From: a virus
Virus record (IMG/VR): IMGVR_UViG_3300020215_000138
Coordinates: 1 to 23,752 of that record
Reading direction: 5' to 3' (one strand)
DNA: 23,752 bases
The first letter of the stretch is position 1, and every line of letters starts with the position of its first letter. Under the pieces are notes generated by a model that was not told the DNA's origin, did no database searches, and worked only from the letters and a program-made list of their open reading frames with translations. Below are positions 15,188-21,703 of this stretch, in pieces. Made by a program: the position numbers and the translations under genes.

Positions 15188-15820
15188 CTACGGACGAATC
15201 CAGAGAACCGGAGAAGCCCACTCAAGCGTGACGTTCTCAACCATCGCCGCCGATTTACCGCCGCTAACGCGCCAGGGCGTGAGGTTGTACGTACCGTTCT
15301 TGTAGCCTCGATTAACGAAGGCGACGGACGCTTGATCTTCGTTTTTCCCGACAACGCAAAGTCGCCCGATGATATCGGGCAAGAGCGTTCCGGGTTTCCT
15401 TATATAAAGAAGCCATCCGTCGATCATGTCTTGAACAGAGCGCGCGGTGCGACACCTAACCGCGACGGAATCCGGGGGCAGATCAACAGGCCCAGGAACC
15501 ATCTCGGCGTCCTTAATGCTCGCCATGTGAACGTTCAAGTCTTCGTCCACGTACCCGGCCACACGAAAGGAGCGATGTCCGTCTTCATGCATGGCGACAC
15601 CTGAATGTCTAAGAACCTCAACGAGTGGGACATCCAGGAGGTCGGCGAATTGGCGAGCTTCTTCAAGCCTCATCCCTCGTTTGCCGCGAAGCATGAGGGA
15701 AAGAGCCGAAGGTTCAAGCGGCCGGCCGTTCCGTCCTCGAATTTTGCGCGCAAAACGGCGTTGCGAGCCGTAGGGGCTCTGACGAATGAGCTCCATGAAC
15801 CACGCGGTATCGACCTTCAT
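15188..15820 (-). CDS. CI-like phage repressor (HTH plus S24-like C-terminal domain)
   Basis: ATG 15820 gives 210 residues starting MKVDTAWFMELIRQS; the upstream extension crosses the operators and is not protein-like. Residues 8-75 are an XRE-type HTH (S-Q-R-R-F-A-R-K-I, then PSALSLMLRGKRGMRLEEAR). Residues about 90-205 look like an S24/LexA-type fold (G-Y-V-D-E-D-L-N, then S-V-Q-D-M-I-D-G-W-L-L-Y-I-R-K). The G-D-S-M motif is not present as such and I see no clear catalytic lysine, so RecA-stimulated self-cleavage is doubtful. No ribosome-binding site precedes the start. Divergent from the Cro-like gene; probably silences PL, PR and perhaps late promoters. Confidence 0.82.
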   Translation of the reverse strand: MKVDTAWFMELIRQSPYGSQRRFARKIRGRNGRPLEPSALSLMLRGKRGMRLEEARQFADLLDVPLVEVLRHSGVAMHEDGHRSFRVAGYVDEDLNVHMASIKDAEMVPGPVDLPPDSVAVRCRTARSVQDMIDGWLLYIRKPGTLLPDIIGRLCVVGKNEDQASVAFVNRGYKNGTYNLTPWRVSGGKSAAMVENVTLEWASPVLWIRP

Positions 15821-15866
15821 TGCACGAAGTGTTTCATAAATCCCAACACGGGTCAAGTGGTTCGCA

Positions 15867-15886
15867 TTGCGTTTTTTGGAACGCAA
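15867..15886. repeat. Inverted repeat TTGCGTT/AACGCAA between cI and cro
   Basis: A perfect 7-bp inverted repeat with 6-bp centre, sharing the TTGCG half-site of the operator-like elements. It lies between the cI start and the PR -35. Possibly an additional repressor or Cro site controlling cI. Confidence 0.45.
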
Positions 15887-15894
15887 AAAAGTGC

Positions 15895-15924
15895 TTGACG
15901 GGTGTTCGGATAATCGGATAGTAT
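15895..15924 (+). promoter_or_regulatory. PR promoter for the Cro-like gene
   Basis: TTGACG (15895-15900), 18-bp spacer, TAGTAT (15919-15924), reading into the Cro-like gene at 15984. The spacer holds TTCGGATAATCGGAT and the bases after the -10 hold TTCGGAAATCGCAA. Confidence 0.7.
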
Positions 15925-15938
15925 TTCGGAAATCGCAA
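15905..15938. promoter_or_regulatory. Operator pair at PR
   Basis: TTCGGATAATCGGAT (15905-15919) and TTCGGAAATCGCAA (15925-15938, reverse complement begins TTGCGATTTCCG) are two related dyads 20 bp apart overlapping PR. Half-sites TTGCGA/TTCGGA recur at 16294 and at the late promoters. A separate perfect hairpin ACACGAT-GCCGG-ATCGTGT follows at 15938-15956 in the cro leader. Confidence 0.55.
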
Positions 15939-15983
15939 CACGATGCCGGATCGTGTGCGTTAACCGAGACCGAGGGCTTAATC

Positions 15984-16271
15984 ATGTTTCTATCTCCCGC
16001 TTTGTATGTCATTCACGTGTTTGGAGGCGTCCGTAAAACCGCTCGAGCCATCGGGCGCGGACCCTCTTCTGTTTCAAAATGGAAACTTCCTCGCGAGAAA
16101 GATGGATGCGAAGGCAACATTCCAAGTGCAGCTCAAAGAAAAATTCTGAAAGTCGCCGAAGAACAAAGTCTCGACATCACACCGCATGATCTTCTCTACG
16201 GTCGCAACGTTAAAAAGGCCGAAATAAAACTTAAATATCTCCTAGCCCTCGTCATCATCGCGCTCGCTTAG
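15984..16271 (+). CDS. Cro/YdaS-like HTH regulator
   Basis: ATG 15984 gives 95 residues; the open extension back to 15867 would span the promoter. The core FGGVRKTARAIGRGPSSVSKW followed by P-R-E-K and I-P-S-A-A-Q-R-K-I-L is the YdaS/Cro family HTH that faces the cI-like gene in many temperate phages. An odd C-terminal hydrophobic tail (K-L-K-Y-L-L-A-L-V-I-I-A-L-A) is encoded by the terminator stem region. The likely role is a Cro-type switch to lytic growth. Confidence 0.82.
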   Translation: MFLSPALYVIHVFGGVRKTARAIGRGPSSVSKWKLPREKDGCEGNIPSAAQRKILKVAEEQSLDITPHDLLYGRNVKKAEIKLKYLLALVIIALA

Positions 16272-16308: not shown

Positions 16309-16327
16309 CGGGTGTCGCTCGGATGAC

Positions 16328-17290
16328 ATGGGTGTACTTACCAATCTCTCATTATTCAGCGGCGCCGGAGGACTCGACCTCGGCGCAAAATTTGTCGGCG
16401 GATTCCGAACTATCGGATACGTCGAATTCGACCGCTACGCCCAAGCCGTCCTCATGTCGCGAATCCGAGACAGGCGGCTCGATGACGCCCCTATTTGGAA
16501 CGACATCACAACCTTCGACGCCAAACCCTGGCGCGGACTCGTGGATGTCATCTCTGGCGGCTTCCCGTGCCAAGACGTTTCCGTTGCAGGAAAACAACTC
16601 GGTCTCTTCGGTTCCCGCTCCGGCCTTTGGTTCGAATTCGCCAGAGTCATACGCGAGGTGGGACCGCGATTCGTCCTCGTGGAAAACGTCCCAGGCTTGC
16701 TTGCTCGAGGGATGGGAGACGTTCTCGGTGAACTTTCCGAAGCGGGGTTCGATGCTGAATGGTGGACTTTGTGCGCCGCGGATGTTGGAGCTCCCCACCT
16801 TAGAGAACGAGTCTGGATTGTGGCCTACTCCAAAGAGCTCGCCGAGCGGACCCGATTTTGCGCGCGTCAATCGACCTATGAGTGGCGGCGACGATCTTGC
16901 GACAGCCGTAGCGCGAACCACAATCCCAACACCGACAGTAGGCGACGCGAAGTCGAGCGGAAGCCGGAACACGGCGACGAGCAACGCACACTCGGGCCTC
17001 TCTTTGACGGACTTTGTGAAGAGGGACGGGGGCAAGGGGAGGATTCCAACGCCATCGGTGAACGACCACAAGGGATCATCGAGGCCGGGCCAACGACGAA
17101 GGCAACTCACGGACCCGGCGATGAACGTGATCCCCGCTGGTGGGCAACTGAACCCAACGTGGGTCGAGTGGCTCATGGGGTGGCCTTTAGGGTGGACCGT
17201 CTTAGACTCTGCGGCAACGGCGTGGTTCCTCTCCAATCGGCGCCAGCGTGGCGGCTCATCAAAGAACTCTCAGGCTTCGGCGCGCCATGA
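16328..17290 (+). CDS. DNA cytosine-5 methyltransferase
   Basis: The 320-residue C5-MTase carries motif I LSLFSGAGGLDLG (7-19), motif IV GGFPCQDVS (catalytic C81), motif VI V-E-N-V (118-121), motif VIII HLRERVW (R159, R161), and motifs IX/X at the end (C-G-N-G-V-V-P near 295). The target-recognition region (about 170-270) is variable, with D-S-R-R-R and S-N-A-I-G-E-R-type repeats. It would methylate phage DNA, probably against host restriction; no partner endonuclease is seen. The weak ribosome-binding site leaves ATG 16328 only moderately secure. A second open frame covers most of it. Confidence 0.93.
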   Translation: MGVLTNLSLFSGAGGLDLGAKFVGGFRTIGYVEFDRYAQAVLMSRIRDRRLDDAPIWNDITTFDAKPWRGLVDVISGGFPCQDVSVAGKQLGLFGSRSGLWFEFARVIREVGPRFVLVENVPGLLARGMGDVLGELSEAGFDAEWWTLCAADVGAPHLRERVWIVAYSKELAERTRFCARQSTYEWRRRSCDSRSANHNPNTDSRRREVERKPEHGDEQRTLGPLFDGLCEEGRGQGEDSNAIGERPQGIIEAGPTTKATHGPGDERDPRWWATEPNVGRVAHGVAFRVDRLRLCGNGVVPLQSAPAWRLIKELSGFGAP

Positions 17291-17294
17291 GTGA
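16482..17294 (+). CDS. Second long reading frame inside the methyltransferase gene
   Basis: This is the frame one base downstream of the methyltransferase frame, open throughout; ATG 16482 gives 270 residues starting MTPLFGTTSQPSTPNP. It contains A-R-W-D-R-D-S-S-S-W-K-T-S-Q, three P-T-P repeats (L-W-P-T-P, I-P-T-P-T-V-G-D-A-K, I-P-T-P-S-V-N-D-H-K) and GGQLNPTWVEWLMGWPLGWT. I recall this last motif and the M-T-x-L-F-G-T-T-S start in annotated phage proteins, so the frame may be a genuine overprinted gene. The alternative is a conserved shadow of repeated methyltransferase codons. No strong ribosome-binding site; function unknown. Confidence 0.45.
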   Translation: MTPLFGTTSQPSTPNPGADSWMSSLAASRAKTFPLQENNSVSSVPAPAFGSNSPESYARWDRDSSSWKTSQACLLEGWETFSVNFPKRGSMLNGGLCAPRMLELPTLENESGLWPTPKSSPSGPDFARVNRPMSGGDDLATAVARTTIPTPTVGDAKSSGSRNTATSNAHSGLSLTDFVKRDGGKGRIPTPSVNDHKGSSRPGQRRRQLTDPAMNVIPAGGQLNPTWVEWLMGWPLGWTVLDSAATAWFLSNRRQRGGSSKNSQASARHE

Positions 17295-17318: not shown

Positions 17319-18719
17319 ATGACGCCAACATTACGCCCATATCAGACCCGCATCATCGATGAGTGCCGAGGCCACATGCAGCGCGGCACTCGTTCTATCG
17401 TTATCCAGTCGCCCACCGGATCGGGCAAGACGCTTCTGACCGCTCACATGGTGAAGACCGCCGCCGCCAAAGGTATGACCGCTTGGTTTTGCGTCCATCG
17501 CCGCGAGCTCGTCAAGCAATCCATTCGCGCCTTCGCTGAGGTCGGAGTCAATCACGGCGTTGTGGCCGCGGGATTCCTCGAGGCCAAGCGTCACGCGGTT
17601 CAAATCGCGTCGATTCAAACGCTCATTCGCCGGTACGAGCGGCTTCGCCGGCCGCAACTCATCATTTGGGACGAGTGCCACCACATCGCCGCCGGCTCGT
17701 GGGCGGCGCTCCGTAAAGCCATCCCCGAAGCTTTCCATATAGGACTGACGGCGACGCCCGAGCGCTTGGACGGCAAGGGCCTGGCCGAATACTTCGACGT
17801 GATGATCGAAGGCCCCTCGGTTGAGTGGCTTATCGAAAACGGCTATCTCGCGCCGTATCGCATCTTCGCGCCTCAAGGCATCTCGGTCGCCGGCGTTCAT
17901 ACCCGCATGGGCGACTTTGCCAAGGACGAGCTTCTTGCCGTAGCAGACAAGCCGACGATCACGGGTGACGCCATCAAGCACTACCTGAAACACGCCGCGG
18001 GAAAGCGCGCGGTCGTTTTTTGCGTGTCTATCGAGCACTCGAAACACGTCGTTGAACAGTTTAGACAAGCGGGAATCCCCGCCGTTCACGTGGACGGGGA
18101 AACGGAAACGGAGGCGCGAGACCAAGCAATAAGGAGGTTCACAAATGGAGAGGTGCGTGTTCTGTCGAATGTCGAGCTCTTTGGAGAGGGCTTTGACTTG
18201 CCTTCGCTGGAAGTGGCTATTTTGCTGCGTCCGACTCAAAGTTTGGGTCTTTATCTTCAACAGGTGGGTCGCGCGCTTCGTCCGTCGCCAGGAAAGACGG
18301 AAGCCATCATTCTCGATCACGCTGGCAACTGCGAAAGACACGGCCTCCCTGACGAAGAGCGTCAGTGGTCCATTAGTGGACGTGAAGATAAGACCCGAAG
18401 AGGTGCTAATGCCGTGGCATCTGTCCGTGTCTGCCCACGATGCTTTGCCGCTCAGTATCCAGGCCGCGCAAGCTGCACATATTGCGGCCACGTCTTCGAA
18501 GCCAAGCCCCGCCAGGTCGAACACGTCGAAGGTGACCTCCAAGAAGTCGATACCGCGGCACTCAGGCGGCAAAGGCTCCGCGAGCAATCGCGCACGGAAA
18601 CCTTCGAAGACCTCGTAGAACTCGGCCGCGCACGTGGCTACAAGCGGCCTTACTTGTGGGCGAAACACGTGTGGAACGCCCGTCAACAAAAGAAGCTCGC
18701 TGAAGGGAGGGCAGTTTGA
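17319..18719 (+). CDS. SF2 DEAD/DEAH-box helicase with C-terminal zinc finger
   Basis: The 466-residue product has Walker A SPTGSGKT (31-38), DECH (118-121), motif III T-A-T-P (144-147), a helicase C-terminal domain with SNVELFGEGFD (283-293) and motif VI QQVGRALRP (314-322), then CPRC (372-375) and CTYC (386-389) forming a zinc finger, and a basic tail. The layout resembles the UvrB/RecG-like 'DEAD/DEAH box helicase' of phage replication modules. ATG 17319 lacks a strong ribosome-binding site. It probably unwinds DNA during replication or recombination. Confidence 0.9.
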   Translation: MTPTLRPYQTRIIDECRGHMQRGTRSIVIQSPTGSGKTLLTAHMVKTAAAKGMTAWFCVHRRELVKQSIRAFAEVGVNHGVVAAGFLEAKRHAVQIASIQTLIRRYERLRRPQLIIWDECHHIAAGSWAALRKAIPEAFHIGLTATPERLDGKGLAEYFDVMIEGPSVEWLIENGYLAPYRIFAPQGISVAGVHTRMGDFAKDELLAVADKPTITGDAIKHYLKHAAGKRAVVFCVSIEHSKHVVEQFRQAGIPAVHVDGETETEARDQAIRRFTNGEVRVLSNVELFGEGFDLPSLEVAILLRPTQSLGLYLQQVGRALRPSPGKTEAIILDHAGNCERHGLPDEERQWSISGREDKTRRGANAVASVRVCPRCFAAQYPGRASCTYCGHVFEAKPRQVEHVEGDLQEVDTAALRRQRLREQSRTETFEDLVELGRARGYKRPYLWAKHVWNARQQKKLAEGRAV

Positions 18720-18880
18720 AAAACTCAAAACAACGCTTAATCGAAGACGGGCTTCGTGCCGGGTGGATTGACCGCCGAGAAGAACCGAGACCCGATGTTC
18801 TCGGAATCGTGCTTTGCATTGTCGTCTGTAGCGTCTTTTGGTTTCTGGCCGGACTATTCGCCGGGAAGTTTCTGATTTAA
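18716..18880 (+). CDS. 54-residue single-pass membrane protein, TTG start
   Basis: TTG 18716 overlaps the helicase stop by 4 nt (TTGA) and follows AAGGGAGGG at good distance. A charged N-terminus (GWIDRREEPRPD) precedes one long membrane helix (V-L-G-I-V-L-C-I-V-V-C-S-V-F-W-F-L-A-G). Function unknown. The rare TTG start is supported by the strong ribosome-binding site. Confidence 0.65.
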   Translation: MKNSKQRLIEDGLRAGWIDRREEPRPDVLGIVLCIVVCSVFWFLAGLFAGKFLI

Positions 18881-18884
18881 GTCG

Positions 18885-19124
18885 ATGCTTCATCTTTGCG
18901 TAGCCACCGGATGCGATAAGCGGTTGTCGCTTGAGCGAATCTTTTGCAAGCGGCATTGGTCTATGGTTCCGTCCGCTATTCGAAACCGAATCTTCGATCA
19001 CTACCGGCTCGGCCAGTGCTACGACCGCAAGCCGTCTAGCGCATGGCTCGAGGCCGTCAAGGACGCGGTTCTTTTCATCCGCGAGGCCGAGGATTTCAAG
19101 ATGTCGTGGAGGTCGCGTGTCTGA
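18885..19124 (+). CDS. Small Cys/His phage protein
   Basis: The 79-residue product has C-V-A-T-G-C-D-K-R-L, then F-C-K-R-H-W and V-P-S-A-I-R-N-R-I. This C-x4-C ... C-x2-H pattern is typical of a small zinc protein recurrent in phage replication modules. C-terminal helix A-V-K-D-A-V-L-F-I-R-E. Overlaps the nuclease start by 8 nt. Function unknown. Confidence 0.72.
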   Translation: MLHLCVATGCDKRLSLERIFCKRHWSMVPSAIRNRIFDHYRLGQCYDRKPSSAWLEAVKDAVLFIREAEDFKMSWRSRV

Positions 19125-19434
19125 GGCCGACATCATGCGCGATATCCAAGTCGCGTGTGCGCGCGTAGGCCACCGACTTTTCAGGAACCAAGTCGGCAAG
19201 TACCAGCTCGCCGATGGACGGTGGATTTCTTCAGGGCTTTGCATTGGCTCGTCCGACCTCATCGGGTGGACTGCATGCGGCCGGTTTCTCGCGGTCGAAG
19301 TCAAGACCGTACACGGCCGCCTGACGCCTGAGCAGCTTCGCTTTATCGACATCGTAAACGCCGCCGGTGGCGTCGCCTTCGTGGCGCAATCATCGAGGGA
19401 GGCATTAGAGAAATTAAACGAACGGATTAATTGA
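19117..19434 (+). CDS. VRR-NUC domain nuclease
   Basis: GTG 19117, with GGAGG 4 nt upstream, gives 105 residues (an open extension to 18931 lies inside the preceding gene). Motifs: S-E-A-D-I-M-R-D-I-Q, R-N-Q-V-G-K-Y, GSSDLIGW (metal-binding Asp), A-V-E-V-K-T (E-x-K) and L-T-P-E-Q-L-R-F-I (Gln). This is the stand-alone phage VRR-NUC (PD-(D/E)xK) fold, probably a Holliday-junction or flap nuclease working with the helicase and primase. Confidence 0.88.
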   Translation: MSEADIMRDIQVACARVGHRLFRNQVGKYQLADGRWISSGLCIGSSDLIGWTACGRFLAVEVKTVHGRLTPEQLRFIDIVNAAGGVAFVAQSSREALEKLNERIN

Positions 19435-19444
19435 TTGGGCTCGC

Positions 19445-21703
19445 ATGGACACCCGAGAATTGGATTTTGAAGGTTTAGCACGACATCTTTTAGGTAAAGC
19501 ACGTAACCTCCTACCTTTATGGCTTCCTGGCGGCGCGCTCCGCGGCGCCGAGTGGTGTTGCGGCGACTTACGAGGCGAGCGAGGGGATAGCCTCAAGGTC
19601 AACGTCAACACTGGCAAGTGGGCCGACTTCGCGACCGGCGATAAGGGCGGCGATTTAGTATCGCTTTACGCCGCCATCCACGGCATCAAACAGGCCGAGG
19701 CGGCGAAGCGGCTCGCGGAGTCTGAGAACTATTCAATACGCCCACAAGAAACGAACTCCGTAGCACGACGCGAGGAACCAAAACCGAGCAAGCCGGACCC
19801 CAAGCACCTCCATAACACCGCGGACTTTAGGCACGGTCAACACGGCGACCCGTCAACCATGTGGGAGTATAAGGACTCCGACGGGTCGCTCATGTTCTTC
19901 GTCGCTCGCTACGACACGTCCGCGGGTAAGCAAATCCTCCCGTGGTCATGGGTTGATGGCCGCTGGCAATGCAAGGGTTGGCCGGCACCACGACCGCTCT
20001 ATGGCCTCCAAGAGCTCGCGGCGAACCCGGCAAAGCCCGTCCTCATCGTTGAAGGCGAGAAGGCCGCGGATGCCGCGCGCAAGATCGTCGGGAGCGTGTA
20101 CGTCGTTGTTACCTGGCCGAATGGTTCCAAAGCTGTCTCCAAAGCTGATTGGCGCCCTGTCTATGGTCGAAAGGTTCTAATTTGGCCGGATGCGGATGAG
20201 GCGGGAATCAGCGCGGGGTACGATGTTGCGAAAATCTTAACACAACACGTCCCTGAAGTCAAGCTCATCGACCCTAGCGTGAATCCGAGCCTTAGTGCCA
20301 CCTCCGGGTGGGACGCGGCCGACGCGCTCGCGGCCGGGTGGACGTGGAACGACTTCAAGGAGTGGGCGAAAACCCGCGTCTCAGTCTACAAGACGCCCGA
20401 CCTCATCCAAGCAACCGCCGTCGCCGAGACAGATAAAACGATAGCCGCTGCACAAGTAAATGTGCAACTGCACACCGAGGATGGCGTCGATATCCCAGGC
20501 AACCTCCAAGAAATCTATGCCTCGCTCGGTATCATGTCCACGCGCCAAGGCGCTGCGGTCTGCAATCTGAATAACATAAACCGTGCGCTATCCGGTCTTG
20601 ACCGCTTCAAAGGCTCCATTTGGTTCGATGACTTCCACCGGAAGTTCTTTACGACTCTCGACTCAACCGAACCGCATGAGTGGTTGGACATAGACGACCT
20701 TCGGCTTACGAACTACCTTCAAGAACGCCTCGGTTTTCTTAAAGTCTCCGACGACCTCGTAAATAAGGCCGTCCGGCTTTTTGCCAAAAGCGACATTCGT
20801 AACGAACCGAGGGATTGGTTCGAAACCCTCGTGTGGGATAAGAAACCCCGCATCGAGAGCTTCTTCATCGATTGCGCCGAGGCCCCCGACAACGACTACG
20901 TACGCGCGGCAAGCCGCAACTTTTGGGTCTCGATGGTTGCCCGTGTCTATAAGCCAGGGTCCAAGGTCGATAACATGGTCATCTTGGAAGGCGGCCAAGG
21001 GAAGTTTAAATCGACCCTCCTTGCCACTATCGGTGGCAAGTGGCACTCGGAATCGTCCGAAGCCATCGGCACGAGCAACTTTTATCAATCGCTCAATGGC
21101 AAGCTCATTATCGAGTTTGCCGATCTATCCAACTGGCCGAAGTATGATGTCGATGTCCTCAAGAAAACCATCACCTGTCGGGTTGACCGCTACCGTGCGC
21201 CTTACGCTCGAAACTCTGAGGACTTCCCCCGCACATCGATCTTTGCCGGGACAACCAACGAGTCAATCTATCTTCGTGACGACACAGGCGCGCGACGATT
21301 CTGGCCTATTCAGACGGGCTTTATCGACATCGCACGGACCTCTGAGCTTAGGGAGCAGCTCTTTGCCGAGGCGGTTGAAGCTTTCAAAGCCGGTGCGTCA
21401 TGGTGGGAAATGCCAGACTCAGCGTTAAACGAACAAGAGCTTAGACGCATCTCGGATGAGTGGGAGCATGTCATTGCTGACTTCCTTATCCAGCGCGAAG
21501 AAATCACTATCAAGGAAATCGCGCTCGACTCGCCGCTTAAGATCGACCTCGCCAAGCTCGATAAGTCGATTCAAATGCGTATAGCTCGGATTATTAAATC
21601 GCTCGGTTGGGAGAGACGGACGGTGAGAACAGGTGGGAACATTCAAAAGATGTGGTTTCGGAACCGTAACCACGGTGGCGGTAATGATGAGGTTCCGTGG
21701 TAA
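19445..21703 (+). CDS. Primase-helicase: TOPRIM domain plus VapE-type ATPase
   Basis: The 752-residue product has an N-terminal primase zinc-like region (25-75, with W-A-D-F-A-T-G-D-K-G-G-D), a TOPRIM-like domain (about 185-300, with VEGEK at 202-206 and D-A-D-E-A-G at 249-254), and a C-terminal virulence-associated-E ATPase: Walker A GGQGKFKST (516-524), Walker B K-L-I-I-E-F-A-D-L (553-561) and F-A-G-T-T-N-E with D-D-T-G-A-R-R-F-W (600-620). It probably primes and unwinds at the phage origin. ATG 19445 has a weak ribosome-binding site. Confidence 0.9.
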   Translation: MDTRELDFEGLARHLLGKARNLLPLWLPGGALRGAEWCCGDLRGERGDSLKVNVNTGKWADFATGDKGGDLVSLYAAIHGIKQAEAAKRLAESENYSIRPQETNSVARREEPKPSKPDPKHLHNTADFRHGQHGDPSTMWEYKDSDGSLMFFVARYDTSAGKQILPWSWVDGRWQCKGWPAPRPLYGLQELAANPAKPVLIVEGEKAADAARKIVGSVYVVVTWPNGSKAVSKADWRPVYGRKVLIWPDADEAGISAGYDVAKILTQHVPEVKLIDPSVNPSLSATSGWDAADALAAGWTWNDFKEWAKTRVSVYKTPDLIQATAVAETDKTIAAAQVNVQLHTEDGVDIPGNLQEIYASLGIMSTRQGAAVCNLNNINRALSGLDRFKGSIWFDDFHRKFFTTLDSTEPHEWLDIDDLRLTNYLQERLGFLKVSDDLVNKAVRLFAKSDIRNEPRDWFETLVWDKKPRIESFFIDCAEAPDNDYVRAASRNFWVSMVARVYKPGSKVDNMVILEGGQGKFKSTLLATIGGKWHSESSEAIGTSNFYQSLNGKLIIEFADLSNWPKYDVDVLKKTITCRVDRYRAPYARNSEDFPRTSIFAGTTNESIYLRDDTGARRFWPIQTGFIDIARTSELREQLFAEAVEAFKAGASWWEMPDSALNEQELRRISDEWEHVIADFLIQREEITIKEIALDSPLKIDLAKLDKSIQMRIARIIKSLGWERRTVRTGGNIQKMWFRNRNHGGGNDEVPW

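Follow-up and report, generated by a model that had tools for sequence, protein, structure and literature searches.

The window analysed here is the whole of a 23.75 kb virus record. By eye, its left part carries structural-type genes and an integrase-like gene on the minus strand. The window also holds RecT and YqaJ recombination genes and an early operon running rightward, in which genes for a helicase, a VRR-NUC nuclease and a VapE-type primase/helicase come after a DNA methyltransferase (MTase) gene. Upstream of the MTase gene, at 15188–16271, a divergent regulator-like pair was recognised by eye, with an ORF similar to a CI-type repressor on the minus strand and a small Cro-like HTH ORF on the plus strand. 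Antisense to the helicase gene lies an open frame of 723 codons (17331–19502, minus strand), which is probably a product of codon bias.

The MTase gene, here called alpha (16328–17290, plus strand), was assigned to the C5-cytosine DNA methyltransferases, as a large subunit with motifs I–VIII and X, from its matches to PF00145 (E=1.5e-37, covering only profile positions 3–169 of 324) and phrog_363 (1.6e-73) and from an alignment of relatives (alignment A2). Motifs I, IV (PCQ), VI (ENV), VIII and X are all present in this alignment. Motif IV, GGFPCQD with the catalytic Cys (16556–16576), is invariant; motif VIII, RERVWIVA (16802–16825), aligns to single-chain MTases; and motif X reads GNGVVP (17213–17230). 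PF00145 enzymes have motif IX in the same chain, and a search for it in alignment A2, including the stretch before motif X, showed that it is absent from alpha. An earlier preliminary description of this DNA had given both motifs IX and X to the MTase frame; motif X is indeed there, but motif IX lies in the second frame. The same division, with motif IX in the +1 frame and motif X in the alpha frame, was found by profile search in 80 of 80 loci. The variable region of alpha between motifs VIII and X differs greatly in length among relatives (L102, L001 of alignment A2 and similar ones), as expected for a recognition region, with both frames kept open.

The +1 frame on the same strand is open from stop to stop between 16272 and 17294. 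From an ATG at 16323 to the stop at 17294 it encodes 323 aa (16323–17294, plus strand), and this ORF, called beta, is proposed to be a small subunit; alpha and beta are nearly co-extensive over about 970 bases. The two open frames on one strand noted in the preliminary description were confirmed, and the overlap of about 810 nt from 16482 that it reported is real, although both ends lie outside those coordinates and the overlap is longer. The likeliest beta start is the ATG at 16323–16325, 5 nt upstream of the alpha ATG at 16328, as judged by the layout of starts in relatives; no clear Shine-Dalgarno sequence was found for this start in the window. The ATG named earlier as the second-frame start (16482–16484, MTPLFGTTS) is probably not used as such, and an ATG in that register is not general among relatives. 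Another internal ATG at 16752–16754 (MLNGG), from which beta would be 180 aa long, lies in a register (418/421) where ATG is frequent in relatives.

Beta contains three PTP repeats followed by motif IX. The first repeat, WPTP (16821–16832), is read as VAYS in alpha, and the second and third, both IPTP (16923–16934 and 17043–17054), fall within PNTD and SNAI of the alpha stretches PNTDSRRR and SNAIGER, so the previously described coincidence of repeats in the two frames holds. Motif IX, LNPTWVEWLMGWPLGWT (17148–17198), is read from the same bases as EPNVGRVAHGVAFRVD in alpha and is the most conserved stretch across the beta family. Window beta matches phrog_1008 at 1e-25, a family that is also matched by other betas and, in their C-terminal half, by single-chain enzymes. 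Pfam and NCBIfam searches with the tested betas gave no significant match.

Openness and constraint of the +1 frame

To evaluate the second frame, synonymous codon shuffling within alpha was used as the null model, and the longest open stretch in the other frames was measured. Within the window itself, 319 of 320 codons are open in +1 compared with an expected mean of 182 (p about 0.01), which is modest by itself. The same shuffling was then applied to related loci; relatives of the window are only about 45–50% identical to it. Across 104 loci retrieved from viral contigs with either beta or alpha, the open +1 frame covered 97% of alpha where shuffling predicts 43%, and 101 of them reached p<0.05; the +2 frame and all three antisense frames were near expectation. 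A second set was fetched with the alpha profile only, to avoid selection on beta; all 54 new loci were open in +1 (98% versus 40% expected), and the other frames showed no effect. Stops thus do not appear freely in the second frame of homologues, a point raised in the preliminary description, and its view that this frame exceeds chance is correct. Canonical single-chain C5-MTases, some of them from the same bacterial genomes, served as a control and gave 0.23 against 0.24 expected in +1, with an effect in 1 of 15, whereas alpha-type genes from the control genomes showed the +1 effect in 7 of 7. As the loci are mutually related and the counts are not independent events, it is the contrast between frames, together with the canonical MTase controls, that carries the argument.

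A third, antisense frame (16352–17236) had also been reported as open. Although its length in the window stands out (p 0.003), it is near chance in the relatives, where p<0.05 was reached in 12 of 104 loci and the mean was 43% against 40% expected, and we rejected it as a gene. Its weak match to phrog_28355 is probably an antisense by-product.

The second frame has also left traces in the synonymous codons of alpha. The four Trp residues of beta in WVEWLMGWPLGWT require that the alpha Val codons beneath them (17159, 17168, 17180 and 17192) be GTG, and among relatives 321 of 322 such codons are GTG, compared with 535 of 1889 (28%) for valines elsewhere in alpha. In all 95 cases the alpha codon from which beta Met285 arises has AT as its last two bases, whichever of Asp, His, Asn or Tyr it encodes. 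The 5′ sequence of most relatives is (A/G/T)TG-AAT-GAG: alpha begins with the first of these codons, and the beta ATG is 4 nt downstream in +1, often immediately preceded by an in-frame TGA; the window, with its beta ATG upstream, is a variant of this order. The Asn codon that creates the beta ATG is AAT in 80 of 80 relatives and in 52 of 52 of the alpha-selected set, against a preference for AAC over AAT (602 to 330) at Asn codons elsewhere in alpha. The constraint beyond the MTase frame that the preliminary description had proposed to look for is therefore present, both in the GTG codons under the beta Trp residues and in the AAT at the beta start.

Amino-acid identity per frame, compared with synonymous shuffles, rose most in +1 and was also raised in the frames that include alpha third positions; this test shows extra constraint without naming the frame, so the assignment of the constraint to +1 rests on the stops, the starts and the GTG and xAT codons. 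By codon-position divergence, third-position change was lower in alpha than in neighbouring genes in many pairs from the same locus, for example.12/.05/.13 in alpha versus.14/.04/.36 in the neighbour for the pair L099/L104. Because averages by identity band were mixed (.368 versus.349 in the 80–90% band), these values are used as supporting evidence only.

A non-coding second frame, arising as a by-product of codon bias and MTase sequence constraint, would be in keeping with the long antisense frame of the window and with the conservation of synonymous sites in every frame including the alpha third position. It would leave unexplained why the +1 frame is singled out by synonymous shuffling, by the canonical MTase controls, by start-codon conservation and by the fixation of GTG and xAT codons, and we give this explanation practically no weight. 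The second frame is open and is constrained beyond what the first frame explains, and the data strongly support the +1 frame as a genuine overlapping gene, with real dual coding and not a chance open frame.

Homology of the two frames to single-chain methyltransferases

Some relatives carry the motifs of both frames in one chain. In Propionibacterium phage PFR1 gp45 and Mycobacterium prophage prophiT49-1 gp22, motifs I–VIII, LPTP repeats, an (L)xARFxEWMxGxPxG-type motif IX and motif X are found in a single frame, and about 40 viral contigs have the same arrangement. Alpha aligns to positions 7–190 of a single-chain profile (100%, E 4e-47), and beta aligns by its PTP repeats and motif IX to positions 221–373 (hhalign, 97.6%, E 2.6e-12). 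On the strength of this profile alignment, beta is homologous to the C-terminal half of the single-chain MTases, and because these relatives have I–VIII, PTP, IX and X in one frame, beta is most likely the other half of the MTase. The predicted single-chain fold matches M.HhaI from end to end (Z 19.0, 220 residues, rmsd 3.1 Å). The IX/X region of HhaI, KLHPRECARVMGYPDSY..GNSVV, also aligns with that of the single-chain forms, a weak match that is not significant alone. In the +1 frames of PFR1 and prophiT49-1, beta-like FSETWPxSG and LLxTP motifs persist, which suggests that these single-chain forms may derive from overlapping ancestors.

The existence of single-chain fusions also bears on programmed ribosomal frameshifting between the frames, which would yield one longer protein; in actinophages, one +1 shift would link motifs I–VIII to IX–X. 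In the window, however, motif X is in the alpha frame, and a complete enzyme would need a +1 shift and then the reverse shift. With motif X back in the alpha frame, a product of one frameshift is unlikely. Moreover, alpha is conserved through to motif X, and beta has its own conserved ATG in most relatives, often after the TGA, with its N-terminal half open throughout. Overall, we regard frameshifting as very improbable.

The preliminary description had raised the possibility of an overprinted gene. A new protein distinct from an MTase that is complete in itself is not supported, as the second frame holds motif IX, which the MTase frame lacks, and is homologous to the single-chain C-terminal half. 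A broader alternative is a true overprinted gene, with beta having nothing to do with the MTase and acting, for instance, as a regulator or an anti-restriction protein. For most of the N-terminal half of beta (MTWVYLP..., SSWKTSQ..FSxxWPxxGMxxNG), the single-chain MTases offer no counterpart and Pfam no match, and this half may do something else. Beta alone also does not fold confidently: AlphaFold gave a pLDDT of 55.6, with confidence only near residues 111–122 and in the motif IX helix. We set this model aside as fold evidence; low confidence is as expected if beta folds on alpha. Against an unrelated function, the most conserved segment of beta is the very motif missing from alpha, located at the expected place of motif IX, and the C-terminal halves of beta and of the single-chain MTases are homologous. 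Furthermore, beta without alpha was seen in none of 202 loci, in a sample picked by similarity to the alpha/beta pair. An unrelated function is thus improbable in our estimation, though less so than frameshifting, and the likeliest role of beta is that of the small subunit, reading the DNA, in a heterodimeric phage MTase.

The proposed two-subunit enzyme, its distribution and known counterparts

Taking the evidence together, we consider it very probable that this locus specifies a phage C5-cytosine DNA methyltransferase that is a heterodimer, its two subunits being encoded in different frames of nearly the same DNA. Translation of each would begin independently, at start codons lying 4–5 nt apart on one message, so that both subunits would be made together. 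Alpha would provide AdoMet binding and catalysis (motifs I–VIII) as well as motif X, and beta would provide motif IX and the PTP-repeat region, corresponding to most of the small DNA-recognising domain of the single-chain enzymes. Because the model of beta alone is mostly of low confidence, its role as the recognition domain is one that we infer. Alpha and beta would associate and methylate cytosine in phage DNA, and this methylation would probably serve as protection from host restriction. For the window phage, we infer translation of both frames, association of the subunits, an active enzyme, DNA reading by beta and the anti-restriction role.

When 276 loci were sorted by frame, 188 were nested as in the window, with motif X in alpha, 17 had motifs IX and X in the second ORF, and 43 were single-chain; the remainder were incomplete or had no recognised motif. 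A tree of the large domain (85 rows), whose bootstrap support is not fully settled, requires 12 changes of architecture; in it, switches between single-chain and IX+X-split forms recur among actinophage relatives, and the nested type falls mostly in one broad group. The arrangement is conserved among phages and prophages from many bacterial phyla. Genome hits of the nested form come from many phyla, mostly Pseudomonadota and also Verrucomicrobiota, Acidobacteriota, Actinomycetota and archaeal MAG contigs, some of which may be phage or misbinned. In one viral relative (L113:2400–3900), a likely HNH endonuclease ORF (CECCRTEM...CEACGYTRALQAHHIDQDKTHNDSENIQTLCKHCHDFWH) lies in another frame between MTase motifs IX and X, and a frame change near motif IV joins alpha and beta.

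We favour, with some reserve, a wider proposal, namely a large family of phage MTases, spread across phyla, for which encoding in two almost co-extensive frames with complementary halves of the enzyme is obligatory, and whose lineages pass between fused, partly overlapping and nested states through small changes of frame. If so, the recognition region would evolve under constraint from both frames simultaneously. With halves of one enzyme in the two frames, and with both fused and unfused relatives in nature, such a system would make it directly testable how overlapping genes arise and persist. In our judgement, the region would also rank with the longer and more deeply conserved of the known cases of dual coding on one strand in bacteria and phages.

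The proposal would also affect annotation, since hundreds of phage genes called "hypothetical" or a second "DNA methylase", or dropped as spurious, would be subunits of one enzyme. Similar second-frame ORFs are annotated in other phages, as the preliminary description had stated: Paenibacillus phage Diva has a "g49 internal gene", and beta of Mycobacterium phage Qobbit (gp82) is annotated as a second "DNA methylase". In Acidovorax phage Alfacinha1, gp46 (L206:1496–2629), annotated as a cytosine-specific methyltransferase, corresponds to the beta frame, and the large subunit is unannotated in another frame. Pipelines that bar long overlaps would lose one subunit in this way, as in Alfacinha1, where the beta frame alone is annotated. 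A literature search covering only a minority of subscription journals found no publication describing the phage family.

Among annotated relatives, gp50 of phage Diva is a +1-frame beta nested in an MTase gene, with a phrog_1008 match of 1.1e-73; it differs from our reading in being annotated as hypothetical, without a subunit role. PFR1 gp45 and prophiT49-1 gp22 share the large domain, the PTP repeats and motif IX with the window, but have everything in one frame with motif X directly after motif IX. The reconstituted enzyme would resemble M.HhaI in overall fold and motif order, although M.HhaI is a single chain read in one frame.

In M.EcoHK31I, too, the beta gene (176 aa) occupies a different frame within its alpha gene (309 aa). 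Two natural two-polypeptide C5-MTases have been described, M.EcoHK31I, with motifs I–VIII and X in the large polypeptide and IX in the small one, and M.AquI, split naturally between motif VIII and the IX region, with IX–X in the small polypeptide (PMC3404938). The actinophages phi-BT1, Lilbooboo and Qobbit resemble M.AquI (CYCGRG) in holding IX and X together in the second ORF, whereas in the window motif X stays in alpha and the small subunit has motif IX without X. Compared by motif distribution, the window shares with M.EcoHK31I (YGGCCR) the division into a large I–VIII plus X part and a small IX part. It differs in that its MTase is phage-borne and does not belong to a restriction-modification pair within the window, and in the reach of the beta open frame, which covers the whole of alpha and could encode as many as 323 aa, the two starts being no more than 5 nt apart.
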